The notes beneath the pieces are model-generated. The model was not told the DNA's origin. It saw only the letters and a program-made list of their open reading frames with translations, and did not search any database. The position numbers were made by a program, and so were the translations under genes. Shown here piece by piece: positions 2,817 to 64,000 of a stretch of DNA of 64,000 nt (its first letter is position 1; each line of letters begins with the position of its first letter). The stretch comes from a virus. The stretch is taken from positions 1 through 64,000 of the IMG/VR virus record IMGVR_UViG_3300042731_002679. One strand, written 5' to 3'.

Positions 2817-3866
2817 TTAGGTCATCTGTTCCTCGCACCACTGCATGTACTGGAAGGTGCTGCCGTTGGGGTTCTGCCCGAGCCAGTCCGCGTAGCTCAT
2901 GGTCTGCCGCGCGGGCGAGGTGGACGGCCGGGCCAGCGAACGCGGGTGCGGGTCTCGGCTGGGCTGCGGCTTGGGCATTTCCGCCTGGACCGCCTTGATT
3001 GCCCGTTGCACGACCTTCGGCCCCCAGGGCATGCCGTCTTCGACGAGCGCCGCGATCTCGGCGTCGACCTTGGTGCCGAACTCCGTGAGTTGGCCGTTGG
3101 TGTCGCCGTTGACGAACAAGGCTTCGGCGTTCTCCTCCCGAATGCGTCTGATGGCGTCCTGGTCGGCACGTTGCTGGAGGGCGGTGCGGCTTTCGGTTTT
3201 CGCCGTCTCGACGAATTCTTCTTTCGCCTGCTCAATGAGTTCCCTCACCACGGGCTCGATCGCTGCTTTTGGATCGCGGGCGAAAGCGAAGCCGGCCTCA
3301 TTGATCTTGCGGTTGACCTCGGCGATTCGATCGGCAAACCGCGGGTCCACGTCTTGCCGCAGTTGGCCGTTGGCGTCGTAGAGCCGCGATGCCGCCCGCT
3401 CGAAGTCGGAGTAGGTTTCCCAGTCGGCGTCACTGCCACCCCATGAGGGGGGCGGTTTGGTGGGCGCTGGCTCCGGGTGAATCGGCTCGTTCTTCTTCAG
3501 CCGGTCGATGACGGTGTAGAACTCGTCCCGCCGGTCTTCGGGGATGCCGTCCACGAGCCGGTGCCACTCCTGGGCCGCCTCGTCGCGGCGCCCGACCATG
3601 CGGCGGGCCTCGTCCATGCTGCGAAAAGCCGCCTCCTCGGAGTCGAACTGGGAGGAAAGGTCGACTCCAGTGGCGGCTTTGTACCGCTCGAAGAATCCTT
3701 CGCTCGGCCCGCCGTCGCCGTTTCCACCCGGGGACTGGGCGGCGTTTGTGGGTGTGGAGGGCTGGGGCGCTGGAGCGGTTCCGGGGGCTCCTGGCTGCGG
3801 AGACGCCGTGGAGGGTGGCGCTGTCGGCGCTGGGGCTGCGGAGGTTGGTGCTGAAGGTTCCGGCAT
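2817..3866 (-). CDS. Putative scaffolding protein
   Basis: 349 aa. The first ~55 residues are a Pro/Ala/Thr-rich disordered tail; the middle is strongly charged and helical (for example DEARRMVGRRDEAAQEWHRL and QRADQDAIRRIREENAEALF), and the end is short and compact (MSYADWLGQNP, then QYMQWCEEQ). This layout plus the position immediately upstream of the capsid gene is typical of phage scaffolds, whose helical body and C-terminal part contact the coat protein. No protease domain is visible. Confidence 0.65.
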   Translation of the reverse strand: MPEPSAPTSAAPAPTAPPSTASPQPGAPGTAPAPQPSTPTNAAQSPGGNGDGGPSEGFFERYKAATGVDLSSQFDSEEAAFRSMDEARRMVGRRDEAAQEWHRLVDGIPEDRRDEFYTVIDRLKKNEPIHPEPAPTKPPPSWGGSDADWETYSDFERAASRLYDANGQLRQDVDPRFADRIAEVNRKINEAGFAFARDPKAAIEPVVRELIEQAKEEFVETAKTESRTALQQRADQDAIRRIREENAEALFVNGDTNGQLTEFGTKVDAEIAALVEDGMPWGPKVVQRAIKAVQAEMPKPQPSRDPHPRSLARPSTSPARQTMSYADWLGQNPNGSTFQYMQWCEEQMT

Positions 3867-3989: not shown

Positions 3990-4238
3990 TTATCCCCGCA
4001 AAACCCCCTTTCTTACGAGAATTGCCCGAATTTTTTCTTCGGGACATTCCGGGGGTGCCTGACCATCGAAGTTGTAGTCAGCACCCCCGCACGCCAGCCG
4101 CTTTGCGCAGTCCCACACCCGGGCGGCGACCGTGGGAAGATCGAAGGTTCCAAGCCAGATGTCCTGGTTGTCGATCTTCAACTTGGCCCGGTACTTGCCC
4201 TTCTGGACGTGGTAGCTGACGCCTCGGAACTTCTTCAT
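3990..4238 (-). CDS. Stand-alone AP2-domain DNA-binding protein
   Basis: 82 aa, almost all of it one AP2/ERF-type domain: FRGVSYHVQKGKYRAKLKI (4-22), then IWLGTFDLPTVAARVWDCA (27-45) and the closing GADYNFDG (52-59). In this fold three strands read the DNA major groove and one helix packs behind. In phages the domain usually sits on the end of HNH homing endonucleases; no nuclease domain is present here. The start overlaps the stop of the upstream gene (ATGA). It may be a transcription regulator of this operon or a remnant of a homing endonuclease. Confidence 0.8.
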   Translation of the reverse strand: MKKFRGVSYHVQKGKYRAKLKIDNQDIWLGTFDLPTVAARVWDCAKRLACGGADYNFDGQAPPECPEEKIRAILVRKGVLRG

Positions 4239-4702
4239 TTCACTGGCCTCGATTGAAGTCGTTTACGGATGGCACACAAGGGGCAGGACTTGGCGTTGTC
4301 GTTGGCAAGGAACTCCCGCAAGTGTTTCGGCAGCTTGCCCAGGATGGCCGCCCGGAGTTTGTCGGGGTGGTAGTCGACCCTAGCAGCGAGTTGATCGACA
4401 GGGATGCGTGCCTCACTTTGCTCCTCGACCCATTTCGTCGCCTTTACGCCAGGGCCGAGCTTGCCGTGGACCTCGGCCAACTGCTCTCGGTAGGCTTTGA
4501 CGGCGTGGGCCAATTCGACGTAGCGAACCCCCAGCATATCCAGGGCTGCCACGCACTCGATCACGTCTTCCCGCGCCCACTCGACAAGCCCCAGGCAGAG
4601 AGCCAAATCAGGGTCCGCGACGTGACGCCTCTCCGCTTCCGGGTCGCTCCACGTCTCGGCGATCTGCTTGGCGCGTTTCTTCTGGCTGGGATTCACCGTC
4701 AA
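4235..4702 (-). CDS. Hypothetical protein
   Basis: 155 aa, not recognised. It looks helical and charged, with SQKKRAKQIAETW near the start, and ends with CPLCAIRKRLQSRPVK (one CxxC, not a full zinc site by itself). It overlaps the downstream AP2 gene by 4 nt and the upstream glycosyltransferase by 95 nt, so one of these boundaries may be off or the genes really overlap. Confidence 0.5.
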   Translation of the reverse strand: MTVNPSQKKRAKQIAETWSDPEAERRHVADPDLALCLGLVEWAREDVIECVAALDMLGVRYVELAHAVKAYREQLAEVHGKLGPGVKATKWVEEQSEARIPVDQLAARVDYHPDKLRAAILGKLPKHLREFLANDNAKSCPLCAIRKRLQSRPVK

Positions 4703-5330
4703 TCCTCGCTGTTCGACGCCCTAACCAGTTCTTTCGGGTGGGTCCGATGTGAAGAACTTCCCAGGGCGGTCTCCGAAGATTCGCCCGCGGCCACTGCTTG
4801 TAGAAAGCCGTGTCGCAGCCCTGGCAGTTGGGAAATTGGGCAGGATAGGCAAGTTCCCCTCTCAGTGACGGATCGCCGGCATGGAATATCTGGCAGTAGC
4901 CGGCGAACTCCCCCGTCTTGCTTTCGCGATCTGCGAAACCGAGCCTGCCCCACTCCTCTTCCGGGGGGATTGCGGCGTGGTTGTCCAGGCTGCGCCGCAG
5001 CGGCGAGTAGAGGAAGCCCGGCTGGTACTCGTAGTCCTTCGCCGCCCGTGGTATCACCACGTCGGCATCGAGAATCGCGATCCAGCCGAAGGGTTCCATC
5101 CACTTGAGGGCCTCATTCAAGCCTGCGCCCTTGTTTATGACAGCATTGTCTGCGAAAAACACGTCGGTTGCCAGCAGACATACCTTCTCGTCCGATTCGT
5201 GGACAAGGGCCTGTGTCCTGGCGTCCATGCTGGCCGTGACCACGATGATCTCCTCGAAGATCGGCAGCCAGCTTGGCAGCACCCGCTGGAGGTAGTCGTC
5301 GTAGCCCACGCAGGTCGTGACGGCTCGCAT
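4608..5330 (-). CDS. GT-A fold glycosyltransferase
   Basis: 240 aa. Features of a nucleotide-sugar glycosyltransferase: an N-terminal Rossmann-like part (MRAVTTCVGYDDYLQRVLP, then IIVVTASMD), and a metal-binding DxD in IAILDADVVIP (residues 84-94). The second half has PNCQGCDTAFYKQWP and EVLHIGPTRKNWLGR, the acceptor side. The last ~35 residues are polar, probably disordered, and overlap the next gene. It is one member of a cassette of sugar-modifying enzymes in the capsid operon. Donor and acceptor cannot be read from sequence. Confidence 0.7.
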   Translation of the reverse strand: MRAVTTCVGYDDYLQRVLPSWLPIFEEIIVVTASMDARTQALVHESDEKVCLLATDVFFADNAVINKGAGLNEALKWMEPFGWIAILDADVVIPRAAKDYEYQPGFLYSPLRRSLDNHAAIPPEEEWGRLGFADRESKTGEFAGYCQIFHAGDPSLRGELAYPAQFPNCQGCDTAFYKQWPRANLRRPPWEVLHIGPTRKNWLGRRTARIDGESQPEETRQADRRDVERPGSGEASRRGP

Positions 5331-5333
5331 GGA

Positions 5334-5546
5334 TCAGTCCTGTCCGCAATCGAACGCTGAGATTCGTTCCCGCTTCATGGCGTTGATGATCTCCCCTACC
5401 CCCTTCTGGACGCTCAGCACGGACGGATGGTTGCGGAAGGCCACAGCGCCGGACCCGATCTGCTGCGGGTGCTTCGCTACCCAGCACACGTCTTCGGTGT
5501 CGATCAGGGCTACGCCGCCGTCTTGCATCTGGACTTCAATGAGCAT
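5334..5546 (-). CDS. Small FlbD-like protein
   Basis: 70 aa from the ATG at 5546. The opening MLIEVQMQDGGVALIDTEDV and later VGEIINAMK have the pattern of short FlbD-type proteins (a small beta structure with a C-terminal helix), though the similarity is slight. It is sandwiched between two glycosyltransferases with almost no spacing, so it is co-transcribed with them. Function unknown. Confidence 0.45.
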   Translation of the reverse strand: MLIEVQMQDGGVALIDTEDVCWVAKHPQQIGSGAVAFRNHPSVLSVQKGVGEIINAMKRERISAFDCGQD

Positions 5547-5551
5547 GTGAC

Positions 5552-6448
5552 TTACCAGTACGGGTTGCTCTCGCACCGCACGCCGGGAATCTCGGGGTAG
5601 TCCTCGACCCGGTCGTGCTGGAGCGGATAGGCGTGCCAGGGGTCCTCTTGCCGGAACCGCTGGCTCGGAAGGTGCGAACGGTAAAACTTACACTTCGGCG
5701 ACAGCATCGCTGCCACGAAGGAGAACGTGCTGTTCGGGGCCAAAATGACTTTACACTGCGTCAGCAGGTAGAAATCCGGGTAGAAGTCCATCTGCGACGG
5801 GTCCTTCTCTTGAAGGTCCCTGGGCAGGTAGTTGTAGTTCGGCAGCGGTTGATCGTAGAGCGACATCCCCAGGTCTTCGGCCGTGGCCGGATCGTACTGC
5901 GAGAACTCACTGACCAGCGACTTGTCTTCGGTGGCAATGAACATTCTCGGCCGGCTCAGGGTCGGCCACACTTCCTCCAGGCAACGCAAGTACCACTCGA
6001 CCGGCGTGATGTAGAAGTGCAGCCGGCCGTAGTCGCCTCGGCGAAGATGCACGCCGACCCAGGTGTCGTAGGTCCCCTTGTTCTTCACCGTCATGGTTCC
6101 GAATCGGAACAACTGGAGGAACCGCTGCTTCCACTTGCCGAAGTAGGACGTGTGATACTGGGCATAGCCGACGAAGTCCCGGTTCACCACGTCGTCGTGA
6201 TCGGGCGGCAAGGCTTGGTAGAGGTGACTGTTTTGCAGAACGGGTTCATGGTAAGGCGGCAACTCACAGTCGATCGGTTGATACCGCGCATAGAGAAGGT
6301 CTTCACCGACCCAGGGCGGAAGCTGGAGTTGGCAGCCGTGTTCTTCGGCGTAGAGCGACAGGAAGGCGTACTGGAAACACTGGTTCCCCCAGCGGCCCAT
6401 CTTGCCGAAGTTCCGCATGGTGATGATGGGTTTGTTGCTTTGGAACAC
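5552..6448 (-). CDS. GT11-type fucosyltransferase-like protein
   Basis: 298 aa, close to the usual length of bacterial alpha-1,2-fucosyltransferases. Three family hallmarks are in order: GRWGNQCFQYA at 18-28 (family GxLGNQxFQYA, with W in place of L), VGVHLRRGDY at 131-140 (the HxRRGDY motif that binds GDP-fucose), and NSTFSFVAAML at 239-249 (family NSTFSxWxAxL). The expected reaction is transfer of fucose from GDP-fucose to the 2-OH of a galactosyl acceptor. The phage shows no GDP-fucose pathway here, so it would use the host pool. It is part of the sugar cassette. Confidence 0.82.
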   Translation of the reverse strand: MFQSNKPIITMRNFGKMGRWGNQCFQYAFLSLYAEEHGCQLQLPPWVGEDLLYARYQPIDCELPPYHEPVLQNSHLYQALPPDHDDVVNRDFVGYAQYHTSYFGKWKQRFLQLFRFGTMTVKNKGTYDTWVGVHLRRGDYGRLHFYITPVEWYLRCLEEVWPTLSRPRMFIATEDKSLVSEFSQYDPATAEDLGMSLYDQPLPNYNYLPRDLQEKDPSQMDFYPDFYLLTQCKVILAPNSTFSFVAAMLSPKCKFYRSHLPSQRFRQEDPWHAYPLQHDRVEDYPEIPGVRCESNPYW

Positions 6449-6460
6449 GGCATGACTCGC

Positions 6461-7996
6461 TTAGGAGGGCTTGAAGAATTGGAGGTAGCCGCCGTGCGTG
6501 TTGATCCGGCCCACCGCCCCGCAGATCGTCGTGGCATCGGGTTCCAGGCCGAGGAACCGGACAACCGACTCCACGAACTGCACGGGCATCGACTTGATCG
6601 CCTCGTAGCTGGTTATCAGGCTCGGGCACTCCACGGTCGACAGGCAGCCCATAAGCTGCGCCAGCAGGTTCGCCGACCGCTCGAACGATTGGTAGGGTTT
6701 TCGCGGGTGCGTGTTATACAGACGCGACTGGGCCAACGCCACCAAGTCACGGAACACGAAGATGCAGCACGGGTTCCGCACGTTCGACGGCAGCATGTCC
6801 AGGGTCACACGCCCGTAGGGATTCTTGAACCCCCACACATCAAACCGCTCGTTGAGTTGCGAGACCTCATATTCCTGATCGGCCATCGACCCACGGACGA
6901 AAATCTTGTTCTCGAAGGACCCGCCGGATGCCATATCCTCGGGCTCGCCCATGTGAACCCCAAGCCCATCGAGGACGGCCGCCACCGACGACGTACCGCC
7001 ACGCGGCACGCCGACAACGAGGACCGTCTTGGGCTCGTCCGCGTCGGCCATTCCGTTGGCGACGAACATCACCGGGGCGGCGGCCCCGATGCCTTCCGTG
7101 GTGCGGTTCGTGGCAAGATCGAACGCCTCGATCTCCGGCATCTTCTCCACCGTTTTCTGCGTAACCGCCTCCAACTCGTAAACCTGCTGCGTGTTGTGGT
7201 GCTGTTGCGACAGCGCCCGCAGTTCCCCCACCAGAATGTCATTGAGCGCCCCCTTTTCTTCCGGGGCGCGGGCGTAGTTACTGGCCTCGCCGCTGGCGTA
7301 GGTGTGGTCGTACTCCAGGCCGCCCAGCACGGCCAGCGTGCGGCCACTGGCAAGCCAGTACATATTGAAGATGAACGAATCGTTGGCGTCGAAGATGAGT
7401 CTTGATCGGTGGCGTTGACGCTCGCCTTCCGGGAGTCCCAACCAGTTGGGCATTTCCAGATCGGCACGCCAACCACGGTACTCCCCGAACACCTCCAAGA
7501 AGGTTTCGCGATGCACGGTTTGGTTGCCGGTATTCAGCATGCAGCCGGCCATCGGCCGATCGACGAGATCGCCCGCTTCGCGTATCGACCAGGCGCCAAT
7601 CAGTTCCCGGTAGTCGAACTCCGGGCGTGCGAACGAAGGGCAATACCACACGTTCGGGTCAAGGCACGGTTCGACCTGCAACAGCCGGTCAATGAACTCA
7701 TGGCTCATGCAGTTGTCGGAATCGCAGTTGATAACCCATTCACCGGAACACTGGGCAATGGCCTCCAGCTTGTTGCCGAAAACGCCGAGATTGACCGTGT
7801 TTTGAAGAAACCGCGCTTTCGGACAGCCTGGACATGCCGTTACGCCGCCGCTCGGCGAAGCATCGTCCACGACGACGATTTCCGAAACAGCAGGATGGCC
7901 GTGGAGAGTTTCAATGGCACGGAAAAGAAGCTCGCCGTGTTCGCGCTCGGGTGTCAACTCGTTGTACGCGGTGATCGCAACGGAGAATTGTGTCAT
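6461..7996 (-). CDS. Fusion of GT2 glycosyltransferase and sulfotransferase
   Basis: 511 aa with two enzymatic halves. Residues 1-~250 are a family 2 glycosyltransferase: FSVAITAYNE at the start, IVVVDDASP (40-48) and the metal-binding DSDN (92-95). Residues ~322-511 look like a PAPS-dependent sulfotransferase: VLVVGVPRGGTSSVAAVL (325-342) matches the 5'-phosphosulfate loop and IFVFRDLVALAQS (412-424) the 3'-phosphate site. A helical linker joins them. The fusion suggests a sugar that is transferred and then sulfated, or a sulfated chain built by one polypeptide. Both domains carry their signature residues; the coupled reaction is an inference. Confidence 0.75.
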   Translation of the reverse strand: MTQFSVAITAYNELTPEREHGELLFRAIETLHGHPAVSEIVVVDDASPSGGVTACPGCPKARFLQNTVNLGVFGNKLEAIAQCSGEWVINCDSDNCMSHEFIDRLLQVEPCLDPNVWYCPSFARPEFDYRELIGAWSIREAGDLVDRPMAGCMLNTGNQTVHRETFLEVFGEYRGWRADLEMPNWLGLPEGERQRHRSRLIFDANDSFIFNMYWLASGRTLAVLGGLEYDHTYASGEASNYARAPEEKGALNDILVGELRALSQQHHNTQQVYELEAVTQKTVEKMPEIEAFDLATNRTTEGIGAAAPVMFVANGMADADEPKTVLVVGVPRGGTSSVAAVLDGLGVHMGEPEDMASGGSFENKIFVRGSMADQEYEVSQLNERFDVWGFKNPYGRVTLDMLPSNVRNPCCIFVFRDLVALAQSRLYNTHPRKPYQSFERSANLLAQLMGCLSTVECPSLITSYEAIKSMPVQFVESVVRFLGLEPDATTICGAVGRINTHGGYLQFFKPS

Positions 7997-8538
7997 GGCT
8001 TGAAGAACCAGAAAGAGGCGTTATCGTCGTGATCTTCGGGAACGGTATGGATGGGGGTATCGAACCGCCGGGCAAACTCGTCGGCGGCCGGCTTGACGGT
8101 CAGGGTGGGGTTGAGGTAGTCGTGGCCCGCCATGATTCCCCCTCGCCGCAGTTTGGGCCAGTAGCACTCCAGGTCACGCATCACGAACTCGTAGTAGTGC
8201 GTGGCGTCGATGTAGACGAAGTCGAGCGACCCATCGGGGATGCGGTCGGCCATGTCGTGCGACCAGCCGCGGAGGATCGCTACGCGGTCGTCGTTGCCGG
8301 CCGTGTTGGCGAGCATCCCCTGGTAGGCTTTGTCGTGGCGTTCGTTTGACCAGCCGCCGAGTTCGGCCTTCATGCCCTCGACGTGCTGCCAAAGGTCGAT
8401 GAGATACAGCAGCGACACACCCCAGGAAAGGATTTCCTTGGAGAACCGACCTTCGGCAACACCGACTTCGGCGGCGTGCCCGAGCAATTCGTGTTCGGCC
8501 AAGAGTTCACCGAACTGGCTGCGGTGTTTGATCTCCAC
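7993..8538 (-). CDS. Class I SAM methyltransferase
   Basis: 181 aa from a GTG at 8538 that follows AGGGGGGGA; a longer in-frame start exists but lies deep in the upstream gene. It matches the Methyltransf_24-type family: AEVGVAEGRFS (the SAM-binding glycine motif), LYLIDLWQH, then LDFVYIDATHYYEFVMRDLE and a GGIMAGHDY segment with the conserved GHDY. Such enzymes usually methylate sugars or small surface molecules in glycan clusters. It overlaps both neighbours by a few bases. Confidence 0.75.
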   Translation of the reverse strand: MEIKHRSQFGELLAEHELLGHAAEVGVAEGRFSKEILSWGVSLLYLIDLWQHVEGMKAELGGWSNERHDKAYQGMLANTAGNDDRVAILRGWSHDMADRIPDGSLDFVYIDATHYYEFVMRDLECYWPKLRRGGIMAGHDYLNPTLTVKPAADEFARRFDTPIHTVPEDHDDNASFWFFKP

Positions 8539-9310
8539 GATCCCCCCCCTTCTCCCAGTCGAACGTGCTGGGGTCGAAGTCTTCCATGCGCTCGGTCCAC
8601 ACATAGGGACCGAGCTTCTTGAAGTGGCTGAAATGAGTGAACCCGCCCGTGCCGATGTCGCTGGCGTTGTCCATTTGCCACGCGGCGCCCGGGACGAGGC
8701 AGTAGCAGTTCAGGGCGTCCCCGATGCGAATGAAGTTGTGGTCGATGCCGTCCGAGTTGGGCAGCATTTCGTCCAGGGCGTCCAGTACCTTGCGGGCGTT
8801 GCGGCCGTTGACGAAGTAAGCGTAGGTTCCCCACTCCCCGAACACCCGCAGGATGTGCGGATCGTCTGTCGGTTCCACGTCGCGACCGCGATGGTGCCAC
8901 GCCGCGCAGTCCGGGTTTGCGTACCACACCCCGGGCACATGAAACGTCGCCCCGAGGTAGAGCACGTCCCAGTCCCAGGTGAGGTGTTCTTCGAGGTACG
9001 CCAGCCGGTCCTGCAAGTCCTCGCAGAAGCACACGTCGTCCTCGAAGACTCCCACGATCCGATCCGAGCCAACGGCCGTGCGGATCACATGGGTCTGCGA
9101 CTGGTAGCAGCCGATCGCTCCGGGCGTCCTGGCGCGGATACGGGCCACCTTCTCTTCCGGCCCCGGCCACTCTTCCGGCAGGAACGCCTCAAAACGATCA
9201 ACCGGCAAGTTAGCGCGCGCGAACTGTTGATTGGCGTGGGCCATGCGATCCGTGCGGTGGGCCAGGTTGATTACCCAGTTATCCAGCCGGAAGCGGTCGA
9301 AGTGGCTCAT
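8507..9310 (-). CDS. Family 25 glycosyltransferase
   Basis: 267 aa. Motifs of the GT25 family (LPS/LOS beta-galactosyltransferases and collagen glucosyl/galactosyltransferases): WVINLAHRTDRM (12-23), GAIGCYQSQTHVI (64-76) and VFEDDV (88-93), where the acidic residues bind the metal. The C-terminal part is polar. It is one of four glycosyltransferases placed before the scaffold and capsid genes. Donor sugar not predictable. Confidence 0.8.
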   Translation of the reverse strand: MSHFDRFRLDNWVINLAHRTDRMAHANQQFARANLPVDRFEAFLPEEWPGPEEKVARIRARTPGAIGCYQSQTHVIRTAVGSDRIVGVFEDDVCFCEDLQDRLAYLEEHLTWDWDVLYLGATFHVPGVWYANPDCAAWHHRGRDVEPTDDPHILRVFGEWGTYAYFVNGRNARKVLDALDEMLPNSDGIDHNFIRIGDALNCYCLVPGAAWQMDNASDIGTGGFTHFSHFKKLGPYVWTERMEDFDPSTFDWEKGGDRGDQTPQPVR

Positions 9311-9969
9311 GCTTCGCCTTTTCTGCGAAAGAGGTAGTTCTCGGAATACTCCCCGATGAGGTCGTGACCTGGCAGCAGGGCGATCAGTTCGTCAAGCGTC
9401 GGATAGCCGAGGTACAACTGACCGAAGGACTGCTGGTTGTGGCACTCCACGTAGACGTAGCGGGTGCGGGCAAGGACTCTCTGCCCGCCGCGCAGCACCT
9501 TGGCCTCGGCGCCCTGCACGTCGATCCATGCCAAATCGACGGGAATGGGCAAATCAAACGTGTTGTCTGCCCACTCGTCGAGAGTCGTCGTCGGCACCTG
9601 GATCGTGGAGTCGAACTTGCACCACGGGCTGTAGCTGAGGTGCCCAGTCGGCAGGCAGAGTGACCCGCTCTTGTCCCAATCTTGCCAGTCTTCCCGCTGG
9701 CAGTTCGGCGGCGTGCCGCCCGACTGGTAGAAGTCGAACTCTCCGCACTCGTCCGACAGGGCCATTTCAACGAGGGTGGCCCGGTTGCCGACGTTGGCGT
9801 GCCACTTGGCGATCGCCCGCGGATCGCACTCGAAGCAGTAAACGTGCGCGTCGGGCAACGCCTCGACGAACCGAAGCGTGTCCTCCCCGTCGTTGGCACC
9901 GATCTCCAAGATGGTCTGGGCGAACGGCCCGAGTAGATCGGGAAGTTCCTCGATGGGAAGTTCGGGCAT
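9307..9969 (-). CDS. FkbM-family methyltransferase
   Basis: 220 aa from the ATG at 9969. FkbM (Methyltransf_21) pattern: ILEIGANDGEDTLRF near residues 20-34 for SAM binding, VYCFECDP (43-50), and VDLAWIDVQGAEAKVLRGG, the family's DVQGxExxVLxG motif. FkbM enzymes O-methylate sugars and related hydroxyls, and sit in many surface-glycan clusters. Its start lies 2 nt after the stop of the upstream glycosyltransferase. Confidence 0.8.
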   Translation of the reverse strand: MPELPIEELPDLLGPFAQTILEIGANDGEDTLRFVEALPDAHVYCFECDPRAIAKWHANVGNRATLVEMALSDECGEFDFYQSGGTPPNCQREDWQDWDKSGSLCLPTGHLSYSPWCKFDSTIQVPTTTLDEWADNTFDLPIPVDLAWIDVQGAEAKVLRGGQRVLARTRYVYVECHNQQSFGQLYLGYPTLDELIALLPGHDLIGEYSENYLFRRKGEA

Positions 9970-9971
9970 CG

Positions 9972-10742
9972 TCACGTCCTCACGTACCGGGCCATGTTGT
10001 CCTGAATGGTCTCCTTCGACCGCCAGCCCTCGGCCATCCGGGGATGCTTGATGTGGAACAAACACATTTCGGGCTCGACCGGCATTTCCGCACGGTACTT
10101 CTCGCCGTATCTTCGCCAGATTTCCCGGTTCATCCACATATCCTCCCATCCCGATCCTGCGAAGGCTTCGCAGAATCTCAGGTCCCCCAAAGTTTCCCTG
10201 GTTATCGAAAACTGGGAATTTCCGAACAGCGGTTCGCCGACCGGCTGATCGAGTTGCGGAAGGACCCGCCCCTCGTGGCGCAGCCGGTGGCGATCGTCAT
10301 CGTACCGTTCCCAGCAGTGATCCACGGCCTTGAGCCAATCCGGGTTGGTCACGTCGACCGAGAACGACACGGACGGCCGGAGGTCCCGAACCCGGTAGCA
10401 GACCTTCGTGATCCGCGGATCGGCCAACCAGCGTGCGGCCTCGAACCACCGCCGGCCGACGAGGATGTCGGCGTCGAGGAAAGTCAGCACGTCGCCGGTT
10501 GCCGCTTCGATCCCCAGGTTCAGGGCCACCGGCTTGTTGTAGAGGTCCCCATCCTGTTCGTCTGCAACGAGCCGTACCGCGTCGTATTCCGTGCCCGGCA
10601 GCAGGCTGGATCGGTTGTCGACCACGACGATCTCGAAATCCCTGATGCGGCACGCCTTGGCCGATTCCACGAGGAAATGAAGGGCGCACGCCAGGTGGGC
10701 GTTGCGTTTCCTGTGCGGAATGATGATCGAGTGCCGAGGCAT
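9972..10742 (-). CDS. GT2 glycosyltransferase
   Basis: 256 aa from the ATG at 10742; an upstream in-frame ATG is less likely. It opens HSIIIPHRKRNAHL, then EIVVVDNRSS (37-46) and LTFLDADILVG (86-96), the nucleotide-sugar and DxD motifs. The C-terminal half has FGNSQFSITRETLGDLRFCE and GWEDMWMNRE, typical of the galactosyltransferase-type C-terminal region (xxGWEDxD). It is the first gene of the leftward operon, next to the divergent promoter region. Confidence 0.8.
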   Translation of the reverse strand: MPRHSIIIPHRKRNAHLACALHFLVESAKACRIRDFEIVVVDNRSSLLPGTEYDAVRLVADEQDGDLYNKPVALNLGIEAATGDVLTFLDADILVGRRWFEAARWLADPRITKVCYRVRDLRPSVSFSVDVTNPDWLKAVDHCWERYDDDRHRLRHEGRVLPQLDQPVGEPLFGNSQFSITRETLGDLRFCEAFAGSGWEDMWMNREIWRRYGEKYRAEMPVEPEMCLFHIKHPRMAEGWRSKETIQDNMARYVRT

Positions 10743-12905: not shown

Positions 12906-13097
12906 ATGCTTGTTCTGGAACGCGCGAAGAATGAGGCCGTCCTGGTCCCTTCCGTGTCAATGAAGATCGTCGTCATTTCGATCGACAACGGCAAGGTCAG
13001 GCTGGGATTCGAGGCCCCCCGGGAAGTTGACATCGTCCGCGACGACGCCAAAAACCCCAACCCCAAGGATCGAACCAACGGCGGGGAGCAAAGGTAG
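12906..13097 (+). CDS. csrA: CsrA/RsmA-family translational regulator
   Basis: 63 aa from the ATG at 12906, behind AAGGAC. CsrA pattern: MLVLERAKNEAVLV (family MLILTRRxGExxxI), KIVVISIDNGKVRLGF, then EAPREVDIVRDD (family APKEVxVxRxEI) with the RNA-binding arginine of the last strand in place. CsrA dimers bind GGA-containing hairpins near start codons and block or stabilise mRNAs. A phage copy could rewire host translation or act on the phage's own GGA-rich leaders. Confidence 0.8.
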   Translation: MLVLERAKNEAVLVPSVSMKIVVISIDNGKVRLGFEAPREVDIVRDDAKNPNPKDRTNGGEQR

Positions 13098-58950: not shown

Positions 58951-59400
58951 CTAGCTTGCGGGAATAACGGTCTTCGGCGTGGCTTTCAGGTCCCAGCCAG
59001 CCGACAAGTTCTGGTCGGTGCTGTTCTTGATCGAGAACTGGCAGTCCGCGACAATCGGTATGCCGTCTAACGGATAGCTGGCCGATGCCGATGCCCCCGA
59101 CGGAATCTTGAACGACCCGACGTACAGGTGCGGGCAGCTTGCCGACGGCGCAGGGGCATCGTTCGCCCCGTCAATGTTCAGGTCTTGGCGAAACAGATCA
59201 ACGGTCGAACCGGCCGCCACCGCCGCACCGAAATCGCAGGTCAAGACGAAGTCGGCCAGCGGGTAGTTGTTGTGCACGCCGCTTTCCAGCGTGTCGTCAT
59301 CGGCTGCCACGTAGGCATCCGACGCCGCCGAAGTACCACTGTCTTCCAGCGTCACTTGGGACGCATACTCGTAAATCACACTATTGGTCGTTGCAGCCAT
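58951..59400 (-). CDS. Small beta-rich virion protein
   Basis: 149 aa. Ala/Ser/Thr/Val-rich, all-beta (YPLADFVLTCDFGAAVAAGS, ASYPLDGIPIVADCQFSI), no motif. Location between LamG and glycosyltransferase genes suggests a virion part. Its first 20 nt overlap the next gene upstream. Confidence 0.5.
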   Translation of the reverse strand: MAATTNSVIYEYASQVTLEDSGTSAASDAYVAADDDTLESGVHNNYPLADFVLTCDFGAAVAAGSTVDLFRQDLNIDGANDAPAPSASCPHLYVGSFKIPSGASASASYPLDGIPIVADCQFSIKNSTDQNLSAGWDLKATPKTVIPAS

Positions 59401-60061
59401 CGGCTGTTCTCCTTTTCTCTAATTCGTCTGCCAGGGCATCGCGATAGGTGTAGTGCCTTGGGCCAACATGGAACAACTTCTTACTCGCATCGTGGTCCAC
59501 ATGCAGGCTGAATCCAGCCTCTCGGGCACGCTGAGAGAACACATAGTCCTGGGTGACGTGGCCATTCTCTTCCGACCAACCCTGGCAGTACCAAGGCCGG
59601 GGGATCGTCTCGTAGACCTCACGCCGAACCAGCGTCAGTCCTTGCGGCAGCAGGTCCACCTCTTCGACGCCGGTGGATTCCTCGGTCGTCAGCACCGTCT
59701 TGCCACCCTTCTGGGCTGTAAACCGCAGCGGGCTGCCCTTGTTGACCGAGTAGTTGGCCCCAACGATGTCGAGCCGCCTACTTGCCAACAGATGCAGCAC
59801 GTCGGGTGCAAACCCCATGTCGTCCTCGATGGAAAGGAAATGCGTCCATCGCAGCCGGTCGTCTTCGAGGTACTTGTCGATCATCCGCTCGTAGTTTGCC
59901 CCGATGCCGCTGCCCTCCACGCCGTCGGTGACGAGGTGCTGTGTCTCCTCGTCGGCGTAGATTCGCTGCTGGGCGAAGTACGCCACCAGCTTCGCCAAGC
60001 TCTGGGCATAGCAGAGTCGGCAAAGTCCGGTGGACGGTGTTAGGACAGCGACGTTGAACAC
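59381..60061 (-). CDS. GT-A type glycosyltransferase in the tail block
   Basis: 226 aa. A VAVLTPSTGLCRLCYAQSL start, HFLSIEDDMGFAPDVLHLL (74-92) with the metal-binding EDD, LDIVGANYSVNK, and LPQGLTLVRREVYETIPRPW then VDHDASKKLFHVG. This is a nucleotide-diphospho-sugar transferase fold. It lies inside the fibre and spike gene cluster, far from the main sugar cassette, so it may decorate tail proteins. Confidence 0.7.
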   Translation of the reverse strand: MFNVAVLTPSTGLCRLCYAQSLAKLVAYFAQQRIYADEETQHLVTDGVEGSGIGANYERMIDKYLEDDRLRWTHFLSIEDDMGFAPDVLHLLASRRLDIVGANYSVNKGSPLRFTAQKGGKTVLTTEESTGVEEVDLLPQGLTLVRREVYETIPRPWYCQGWSEENGHVTQDYVFSQRAREAGFSLHVDHDASKKLFHVGPRHYTYRDALADELEKRRTADGCNDQ

Positions 60062-60998: not shown

Positions 60999-62621
60999 TT
61001 AGGTGCTTCCGGCCTCGTAGGGATGGTCTCTGTCGACGAACACCCGCGTCCCGTCCGGCTCGACTACCCAGAAGTTGTTCACCGCGCTGCCGATCCACTC
61101 GACCAGGCCAAATGACGCCCCGCCTTCCAGCGTCGTGCCCTCGAACTCCGTGCCGGTGCTGCCGTAAATCCAGAATCCCGCCCGCAGGGTCGAGTAGCGG
61201 GGATCGTTGCCCGTGCGGACCAGTGTGCAATCCTCGATCCGGGCCGAATGGCCGACGCCCCCGGGCTCGCCCAGCAGCACGTTAGCCAGCGGTGACTCCA
61301 TGCGAATGTCGCGGTACAGCACGACAGGGTGAGGGCCGGGGTCGCTTCCGTTTCCCATCACGCTCATGCACGCGACTTGCTGGTGGAAGTCGTCCCACAG
61401 GTCCTCCGTCTCGACCGTGACCGAACCGCCCTGGACGACGATGTTGTGGTTCGTCAATCCGCCGCCGACCCAGTAGCCGGTGCCGTAGGCTTTACCGGCC
61501 AAACGAATGATGATCTCGTTGTCCCGAATGTCGAGGTTGCTGCTGTCGTCGCGGCAACGGATACCATGAGCACTCGCACGGTCGCCGTACTCGCCAGATC
61601 GGTTGATCGGCCCTTCCATCGACAGTTCGACGTAGTTGCCGACCGCCTCCGAGTCGGACCCGCCGCCGGTGAAGCTAATCGCGATGACATGCTCGCCCCT
61701 GCCGTAAATATAGTTGTAGTTGGCCGACACGTTCGTCTTGCCGTAGGCCAGCACCGCCCCAGCGTTGGTCGCCCAGGAGTCGATCATAAACTCGTTGTGC
61801 TGGATCGTGTCCCCGCCCTGGAGGTTGAACGCCCGATGCCGGGTGGTGATGACGTTGTGCTCGGCGACGATGCCGGTCCCGAGGATGCCAATCGTCGTTA
61901 CTCCGACGTGCCGATTACTGATGCCCGTACCGCGATCCCGGACGACGCTGTGATGGAGATACCCGGCATGGCCATCACGCAAGTAGATGGCCATAGAGTC
62001 GTCGCCTGCGTATTCAATCTCAACACCCGCGATTTCTGCACCCTGCATGGCAATGGAGTAGATTGGGTGCTGGTTCGTGCGCGATACCCCTTCACGAATG
62101 AAGCCATTGAACACCTCCAATCCCGAACGGTTCCAGGTGTCGCCGTGAACCCCGTATCCAAACTCACTGTTGCCGTAGGTGATCGTGTGGCCATTCAGGT
62201 CGAGCGTGACCCCGCTGGCCTGGACGGTGATTGCCGTGCCGGGCGCGTCGATGTCGGCCGTCAGGTGGTAGTGGCCGGGGGTAGCAATCGTTGTCGGGGA
62301 ATCAATGGGCGTCGAGTTGGCGAATGCCACCGGCTGGAGCGTGACGCCCTGCCCAGTCGGCTGGCCGTCCTGGTAGAACACCGCGTCGACCGCCTCGCCG
62401 GGCAATAGTCCGTCAACGTGCCAGAAGTGGCCGTGCTTGCCGCTGAATGAGGGCCGGGCCGACGACTCGCCTTCGATCTGCAAGTGAACCGACGACGGCT
62501 CGGCGGTTTCGCAGTAGACCACCGCCGCGTCCTGGCTGTCGTGCTGCCATACGTTCATCACCGAGAGAAGCGTTCGCGTCTCCAGTGGTTCGATTCGGCA
62601 TTGACGGGTTGCGGTCAGCAT
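60999..62621 (-). CDS. Beta-helix spike with planctomycete-type N-terminal motif
   Basis: 540 aa. Residues 9-20 are RIEPLETRTLLS, the LE-x-R-x-LL motif seen near the N-terminus of planctomycete surface proteins. Residues ~100-490 look like a right-handed parallel beta-helix: repeated short strands (GVTLDLNGHTITYG, ATTIGI-type turns, EVFNGFIREGV, HNVITTRHRAFNLQGG). This is the fold of many phage tailspikes and pectate-lyase-like enzymes. No catalytic residues can be set from sequence. Likely a receptor-binding or depolymerising spike. Confidence 0.65.
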   Translation of the reverse strand: MLTATRQCRIEPLETRTLLSVMNVWQHDSQDAAVVYCETAEPSSVHLQIEGESSARPSFSGKHGHFWHVDGLLPGEAVDAVFYQDGQPTGQGVTLQPVAFANSTPIDSPTTIATPGHYHLTADIDAPGTAITVQASGVTLDLNGHTITYGNSEFGYGVHGDTWNRSGLEVFNGFIREGVSRTNQHPIYSIAMQGAEIAGVEIEYAGDDSMAIYLRDGHAGYLHHSVVRDRGTGISNRHVGVTTIGILGTGIVAEHNVITTRHRAFNLQGGDTIQHNEFMIDSWATNAGAVLAYGKTNVSANYNYIYGRGEHVIAISFTGGGSDSEAVGNYVELSMEGPINRSGEYGDRASAHGIRCRDDSSNLDIRDNEIIIRLAGKAYGTGYWVGGGLTNHNIVVQGGSVTVETEDLWDDFHQQVACMSVMGNGSDPGPHPVVLYRDIRMESPLANVLLGEPGGVGHSARIEDCTLVRTGNDPRYSTLRAGFWIYGSTGTEFEGTTLEGGASFGLVEWIGSAVNNFWVVEPDGTRVFVDRDHPYEAGST

Positions 62622-63111: not shown

Positions 63112-63335
63112 CACTTCTCCCTCCAACCGACCATGAGGATTACGCCGAACGCAAATACCCGGAAGCTCTCTTGGGCAACGGACCCTGTCAATCTTTTGAT
63201 CCACTCCGTTTCCGGCTGGCACGTCACGACCAGAGTTACTACCGCCACCAGCGCCGCACCAATTCCGGTTATCAACACGCCCGGTATGAAGGCCAGCACT
63301 CGCAGCACAACGTACAGGGCGTCACTCAGCATCAT
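63111..63335 (-). CDS. Small two-span membrane protein, holin-like
   Basis: 74 aa from the ATG at 63335. Hydrophobic regions at about 10-38 (VLAFIPGVLITGIGAALVAV and onward) and about 58-70 (FRVFAFGVILMVG). Small size, membrane segments, and neighbours suggest a holin. Overlaps the peptidase stop. Confidence 0.45.
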   Translation of the reverse strand: MMLSDALYVVLRVLAFIPGVLITGIGAALVAVVTLVVTCQPETEWIKRLTGSVAQESFRVFAFGVILMVGWREK

Positions 63336-64000
63336 GCGGCCTCCACAACGGTTCGTGCCGCCCAGGCACCGTACCGCCAGTTGACGTTGCTGGGGCTGGC
63401 CCACTCGCCGAACCCGCCATTCTTCCAGTTGGTGCCCCAGGAATTCACGTCCAACGTCCGACCGTTCCCAAGGTACTGCAACTTCAACACACTATGCCCC
63501 CGTGCACCGTAGACGACCGGGTAGCCTAGTGCAAGAGACGATAGCAGTTCACGGACGGTTGTGATGTCGTAGAACTCTTCCACACGGTACTTGAGTGCCT
63601 CGGCGATTGCCTCTTCGCTCGGCTTGCGGCGGAAGCCTCCGCTCCGTGGATACAGCGACTCGGGAGCGATGCCCTTTTCACGCACGAACCGCAGGTTCTC
63701 GTCGATGCTGCTTCCGGCGTCGCGACCGTGCGACGTGGTGTTGTAGATGAACAGCGGCGACAAGAGGACGAACGGCTGCCCGGAGAACGCCCGAATGACC
63801 ATCGTATCCTGCCCGGTCGATTCGGTGGCACACGAACCGTGGCCATTCTGGTCGAGGACCTCTTCCACGAACTGCTGATTGTTCACCAGCGGCCCGATCT
63901 CTTCGATCTCTGCATCGGTCAGCACGTCAAGCCGCTCGCTGTAGAGCGGGAACCATTCACCCGGCCGGCTCACACGCGGCAGGCATCCCGTCGCCCGGCC
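63332..64000 (-). CDS. Papain-like cysteine peptidase, open at right edge
   Basis: At least 222 codons; no stop separates the visible frame from the window edge, so it probably starts beyond 64000 (a GTG at 63973 is an alternative start). C1-family residues: QNGHGSCATES with catalytic Cys, GARGHSVLKL with His, and VNSWGTNWKNGGFGEW with Asn. LSPLFIYNTTS matches the family's hydrophobic helix. It may process virion proteins or cut host surface proteins; its place next to small membrane genes also fits a lysis role. Confidence 0.75.
   Translation of the reverse strand, partial: GRATGCLPRVSRPGEWFPLYSERLDVLTDAEIEEIGPLVNNQQFVEEVLDQNGHGSCATESTGQDTMVIRAFSGQPFVLLSPLFIYNTTSHGRDAGSSIDENLRFVREKGIAPESLYPRSGGFRRKPSEEAIAEALKYRVEEFYDITTVRELLSSLALGYPVVYGARGHSVLKLQYLGNGRTLDVNSWGTNWKNGGFGEWASPSNVNWRYGAWAARTVVEAA

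Follow-up and report, generated by a model that had tools for sequence, protein, structure and literature searches.

A cassette of enzyme-type genes ahead of the capsid genes

This analysis concerns a cassette of seven enzyme-type genes (4608–10742, minus strand) in a 64,000-base stretch of viral DNA, hereafter the window, from the linear IMG/VR record IMGVR_UViG_3300042731_002679 (68,303 bases). Two gene blocks diverge at approximately 10.75–11.3 kb, with early genes running rightward and late genes leftward from 10742, where the cassette opens the late operon. A first-pass annotation had proposed seven packed genes here, and the open reading frame (ORF) coordinates bear this out: nearly all overlap or lie ≤12 bases apart (in order from 10742, gaps of 2, −4, −32, −4, 12, 5 and 3 bases, the 5-base gap leading to a 70-amino-acid ORF). 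This small ORF (5334–5546), a gene call inside the cassette for which no family match was found, was missing from that inventory, as was a further glycosyltransferase (GT) gene at 59381–59998.

All cassette genes lie on the minus strand. The operon's first gene encodes a GT2 glycosyltransferase of 256 amino acids (9972–10742; PF00535, 1.6e-9) with the DxD motif FLDAD. It is followed by an FkbM-type O-methyltransferase (9307–9969; PF05050, Methyltransf_21, 5.6e-16; NCBIfam fkbM_fam, 1.9e-24, above cut-off) that carries EIGANDG and IDVQGAE motifs, a GT25 glycosyltransferase (8507–9310; PF01755, Glyco_transf_25, 7.7e-13; PDB GT25 entry 8xlz, 1.3e-4) and a Methyltransf_24 or TylF-like O-methyltransferase (7993–8538; PF13578, 8e-17) matched by 54 phage records, cyanophages among them. 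The GT25 protein has homologues in the huge phage LR756501, a 735-kb uncultured phage in which GT25 and Methyltransf_24 homologues lie <3 kb apart (approximately 330.6–333.7 kb). Next come a fusion of a GT2 domain with a sulfotransferase-like domain (6461–7996; PF00535, 2.3e-12, N-terminal), a GT11, α-1,2-fucosyltransferase-like protein (5552–6448; PF01531, 1.1e-6; PHROG 2644, 3.3e-12; motif HLRRGD) and a putative GT-A glycosyltransferase (4608–5330).

Five of these genes (GT2, FkbM, GT25, Methyltransf_24 and GT11) pass the Pfam cut-off for their entire assigned family, and in the fusion the GT2 part does so; the GT2, GT25 and GT11 proteins combine Pfam gathering scores with metal- or donor-binding motifs. 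The earlier family calls therefore stand for these, while the call for 4608–5330 comes down to a DxD motif (ILDADVV). This protein found no relatives in Pfam, PHROG, phage genomes, planctomycete genomes or the PDB, and in a profile comparison among GT-A families the alignment was limited to the DxD region. Its PDB sequence matches, to unrelated proteins (E 0.27–0.83), were dismissed as noise. Its last 29 codons (4608–4696) are low-complexity and RE-rich, as though an original stop codon had been lost. With the fusion included, GT domains number five, where four glycosyltransferases had been counted.

The fusion comprises a GT2 domain (approximately residues 1–240) and a sulfotransferase-like domain (approximately residues 315–511) whose P-loop, VPRGGTSS, contains a PRGGTSS motif of the kind expected to bind 3′-phosphoadenosine-5′-phosphosulfate (PAPS). 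In isolation, this C-terminal domain resembles sulfotransferase families only (Sulfotransfer_3, 3.5e-4), and its nearest homologues are sulfotransferases. Homologues occur in 3 of 392 Planctomycetota genomes (1.7e-14 to 7.9e-12), and a profile built with these three retrieved 33 PDB chains at E < 1, each weak alone (best 0.014) and all sulfotransferases. Sulfation by this domain is likely, judging from such sequence relationships.

From the cassette to the major capsid protein (MCP) no strong terminator candidate was found, the scan counts equaling chance. The same transcription unit, on the minus strand throughout, includes a protein without assigned function (4235–4696), which overlaps both neighbors (that at 4608–5330 by 89 bases), and a small AP2-like protein (3990–4238; PF00847, 1.4e-4). 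The AP2 gene named in the first-pass annotation has a homologue in a related phage (L117, below; 7666–7923, 2.6e-13), though its AP2 domain scores 22.5 bits against a Pfam cut-off of 33.3. A scaffold-like protein (2817–3866) with weak profile homology to counterparts in two relatives (L125 and L127) precedes the MCP (1546–2643; PHROG 9953, major head protein, 1.5e-9), which has homologues in 46 relative loci. After it comes a conserved head protein of decoration or vertex type (920–1483), its position kept in relatives.

The same slot in related phages

Among 50,697 named phage records there were no DNA, MCP or portal matches, and single-sequence searches with the MCP, the portal, the fusion and the last glycosyltransferase found no relatives in IMG/VR or the named phages. 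The route to relatives led through CsrA (12906–13097, early region; Pfam 2.6e-13), a global post-transcriptional regulator. It matched two loci among 84,980 genomes, both in Planctomycetota (the best being planctomycete metagenome-assembled genomes), and genome searches were restricted to that phylum from then on. An MCP homologue in the Planctomycetota genome G371 and then portal profiles gave approximately 90 IMG/VR loci or contigs. In the close clade (portal 35–42% identical), just two loci offer any length of readable sequence upstream of the scaffold gene.

In the nearest of these, L117 (G395), a different cassette occupies the slot directly upstream of scaffold and MCP. Its 8 kb before the MCP encode an EDD-motif protein, a radical S-adenosylmethionine (SAM)/SPASM protein, a Sulfotransfer_2 protein, two GT2 proteins, a second sulfotransferase, an epimerase/GDP-mannose-dehydratase-like protein (a nucleoside diphosphate [NDP]-sugar dehydratase) and another GT2. 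The two sulfotransferases score 26.4 bits (above the Sulfotransfer_2 cut-off) and 21.4 bits (just below), and from the radical-SAM gene to the last GT2 gene seven genes follow one another at spacings of −26 to 8 bases. None of the window's cassette genes matched the L117 cassette with phmmer at E 0.01, the two having only broad families in common. The second readable locus, L128, opens inside a gene for a GT2 akin to the last one of L117, its C-terminal part lying directly before scaffold and MCP, while Glycos_transf_2 was found in none of the 10 distant groups having >5 kb upstream of the MCP. These patterns suggest a slot conserved in kind whose content has been exchanged.

Glycan-related genes also recur elsewhere in the head module, where relatives share the order scaffold–MCP–head protein–(GT-A)–terL–portal. 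The protein at 59381–59998 (minus strand), in the tail region of the window, is a GT-A-fold glycosyltransferase with profile matches in relatives. In 8 of 28 distinct relative groups a gene of its family (alignment A8) separates the head protein gene from terL; the window's member is displaced. An AlphaFold2 (AF2) model from 10 sequences (predicted local distance difference test [pLDDT] 63; predicted template modeling score 0.63) retrieved glycosyltransferases from the PDB with Foldseek, the collagen hydroxylysine glycosyltransferases LH3 and ColGalT1 first (7.5e-6; TM approximately 0.5 by query) and KfiA and GlfT2 also, and many viral GTs from BFVD. In three relatives a methyltransferase directly follows the portal (FkbM in L119 and L120, Methyltransf_24 in L124). 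Together with the GT-A gene, these portal-side methyltransferases indicate that glycan tools recur inside the head module of the wider phage group.

The first-pass picture of a late, capsid-linked glycan cassette drawing on host sugar nucleotides is strengthened by L117, whose cassette in that position is similar in function, and by the GT or methyltransferase genes that other relatives keep in the head module. Its description as a "complete system" is not supported: synteny holds for the slot (the L117 cassette and the GT2 end in L128) and not for its genes, no further homologues of which were found in the relatives except for FkbM and Methyltransf_24, and the L117 set adds an NDP-sugar dehydratase and a radical-SAM enzyme that the window cassette lacks. 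As gene sets differ and methyltransferases also sit beside the portal, the module appears to be one of exchangeable parts rather than one fixed pathway.

Virion glycosylation and its alternatives

We favor, with moderate confidence, a role in virion glycosylation, the cassette being an exchangeable islet, specific to its clade, with which the late operon of a tailed phage, probably of Planctomycetota, begins. GT genes adjoin the structural gene region, the slot recurs in L117 and L128, and—because that slot holds another set of sugar and sulfate genes in a related phage—particles are probably decorated with exchangeable glycans. Most simply, soluble enzymes made together with the capsid proteins act on virion proteins. 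The expression, activity, acceptor, sugars, sulfation and benefit that we infer would fit together as follows. As particles assemble, soluble glycosyltransferases in the host cytosol would link host NDP-sugars into short glycans carried by at least one virion protein (capsid, decoration or tail); the FkbM and Methyltransf_24 enzymes would add methyl caps, and the C-terminal domain of the fusion would transfer sulfate from PAPS onto these glycans. The decorated surface might then protect the particle or alter adsorption. More tentatively, the virions of planctomycete phages may bear methylated and sulfated, clade-specific oligosaccharides determined by an exchangeable capsid-side locus, a serotype-like polymorphism of particles.

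To our knowledge, phage virion glycosylation has been firmly shown in just a few mycobacteriophages, and sulfated virion glycans would be a first case. The cluster O mycobacteriophage Corndog offers the closest layout that we compared, with an O-methyltransferase and three GT-type genes (gp35–gp38) in the head-gene region, between portal and protease; these enzymes were detected in infected cells and not in particles, and capsid modification was suspected (PMC4351075). Corndog gp38 and Che8 gp110 were later described as required for glycosylating the capsid (PMC12363180, citing Freeman 2023). The window cassette differs in having seven enzymes, in lying upstream of scaffold and MCP and in adding a sulfotransferase, GT11, GT25 and FkbM; the phage is unrelated, its probable host is a planctomycete and its virion glycan is putative. 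What is new is a larger exchangeable cassette, probably adding sulfate, in an unstudied phage group. Such a richer, sulfotransferase-bearing cassette, differing at one locus between related phages, suggests that phage surface glycans may vary as bacterial O-antigens do.

Several points weigh against this interpretation. The isolated C-terminal domain of the fusion misses the curated Sulfotransfer_3 threshold (21.4 bits against 27), so that the sulfotransferase of the first-pass annotation stands by the company it keeps among families and PDB chains and not by the Pfam cut-off, and a single-sequence AF2 model of the fusion was useless (pLDDT 35). Only two close-clade relatives are readable upstream of the scaffold gene, the virion glycan and its acceptor site are hypothetical, and GT clusters of other phages have been proposed to change host O-antigen (PMC7824862).

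This last precedent bears on the alternative that, in infected cells, the cassette alters a polysaccharide or glycoprotein of the host surface, e.g., blocking superinfection by other phages, which we consider possible but less likely. The precedent comes from jumbo cyanophages, whose paralogous GT sets likewise vary among related phages and were interpreted as O-antigen modifiers; however, those clusters include sugar-nucleotide synthesis enzymes, whereas the window has a capsid-gene islet with methyl- and sulfotransferases (PMC7824862). Planctomycetota genomes also hold homologues of the sulfotransferase domain, and host glycans may therefore be sulfated. The gtr operons of serotype-converting phages, whose GTs alter surface sugars, share with the cassette their phage-encoded GTs and additionally specify two membrane proteins, a flippase and a GT. 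No GtrA flippase or membrane GtrB was recognized in the cassette, where hydrophobic segments were sought and no enzyme has a membrane segment, or among the larger genes scanned. Moreover, no strong terminator candidate sets the genes apart from the scaffold and MCP genes into which they read, and the GT and methyltransferase genes of relatives lie within the head module. Between the two targets that the first-pass annotation had left side by side, the absence of membrane segments and of a recognized flippase-type gene, together with the late-operon position, favors the capsid or virion over the host surface.

That the genes are morons, unrelated and gathered singly with no joint product, would fit the different gene content of the window phage and L117, but their tight, overlapping layout and the functional coherence of two independent sets at one position make this improbable. 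Hypermodification of phage DNA bases with sugars against restriction is less probable still: although DNA-glycosylating phage GTs are known (Pyle 2024, as cited in PMC12619734) and sulfotransferase-based modification systems in phages are mentioned in PMC10829341, the cassette belongs to the late rather than the early region, the substrates of the FkbM and GT25 families are glycans or small molecules, no acceptor-base-making enzyme was seen among the larger early genes scanned, and neither a thymidylate synthase/hydroxymethylase family nor Tet_JBP (for which the control was weak) was found in the record, which lacks a small part of the genome.

The phage and its probable host

The phage is previously unknown and belongs to an unstudied group. 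Its host is likely a member of the Planctomycetota: CsrA points to planctomycetes, G371 carries homologues of the MCP, the portal and the largest late protein on one contig, and a late protein of 540 amino acids (60999–62621; starts MLTATRQCRIEPLETRTLLSV) has near its N-terminus IEPLETRTLLSV, which we take to resemble the LEPR-XLL motif of planctomycete (surface) proteins. An NCBIfam scan gave no match for this protein; with such a start, a phage protein possibly bears a signal of host type for export or for the surface. Few phages are known for Planctomycetota, to which the present work would add a new group defined by portal and MCP.

The record seems to be broken between MCP and portal, where relatives carry terL. 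The MCP lies at its left end and the portal at its right, and terL was not found in the record (ends 1 and 68303), so that terL most likely falls in the unassembled gap.

Two further loci were noted. On contig 14 of G371 (105000–145000; L027 and L028) lies a prophage-like region with related MCP, TerL and portal and no GT cassette before the MCP. At the right end of the window, a late protein (63332–64000, continuing to record position 64045; L002 333–1046) resembles by eye a C1-type cysteine peptidase and, while without a Pfam match, is conserved in L117 (8.3e-47) and L119.

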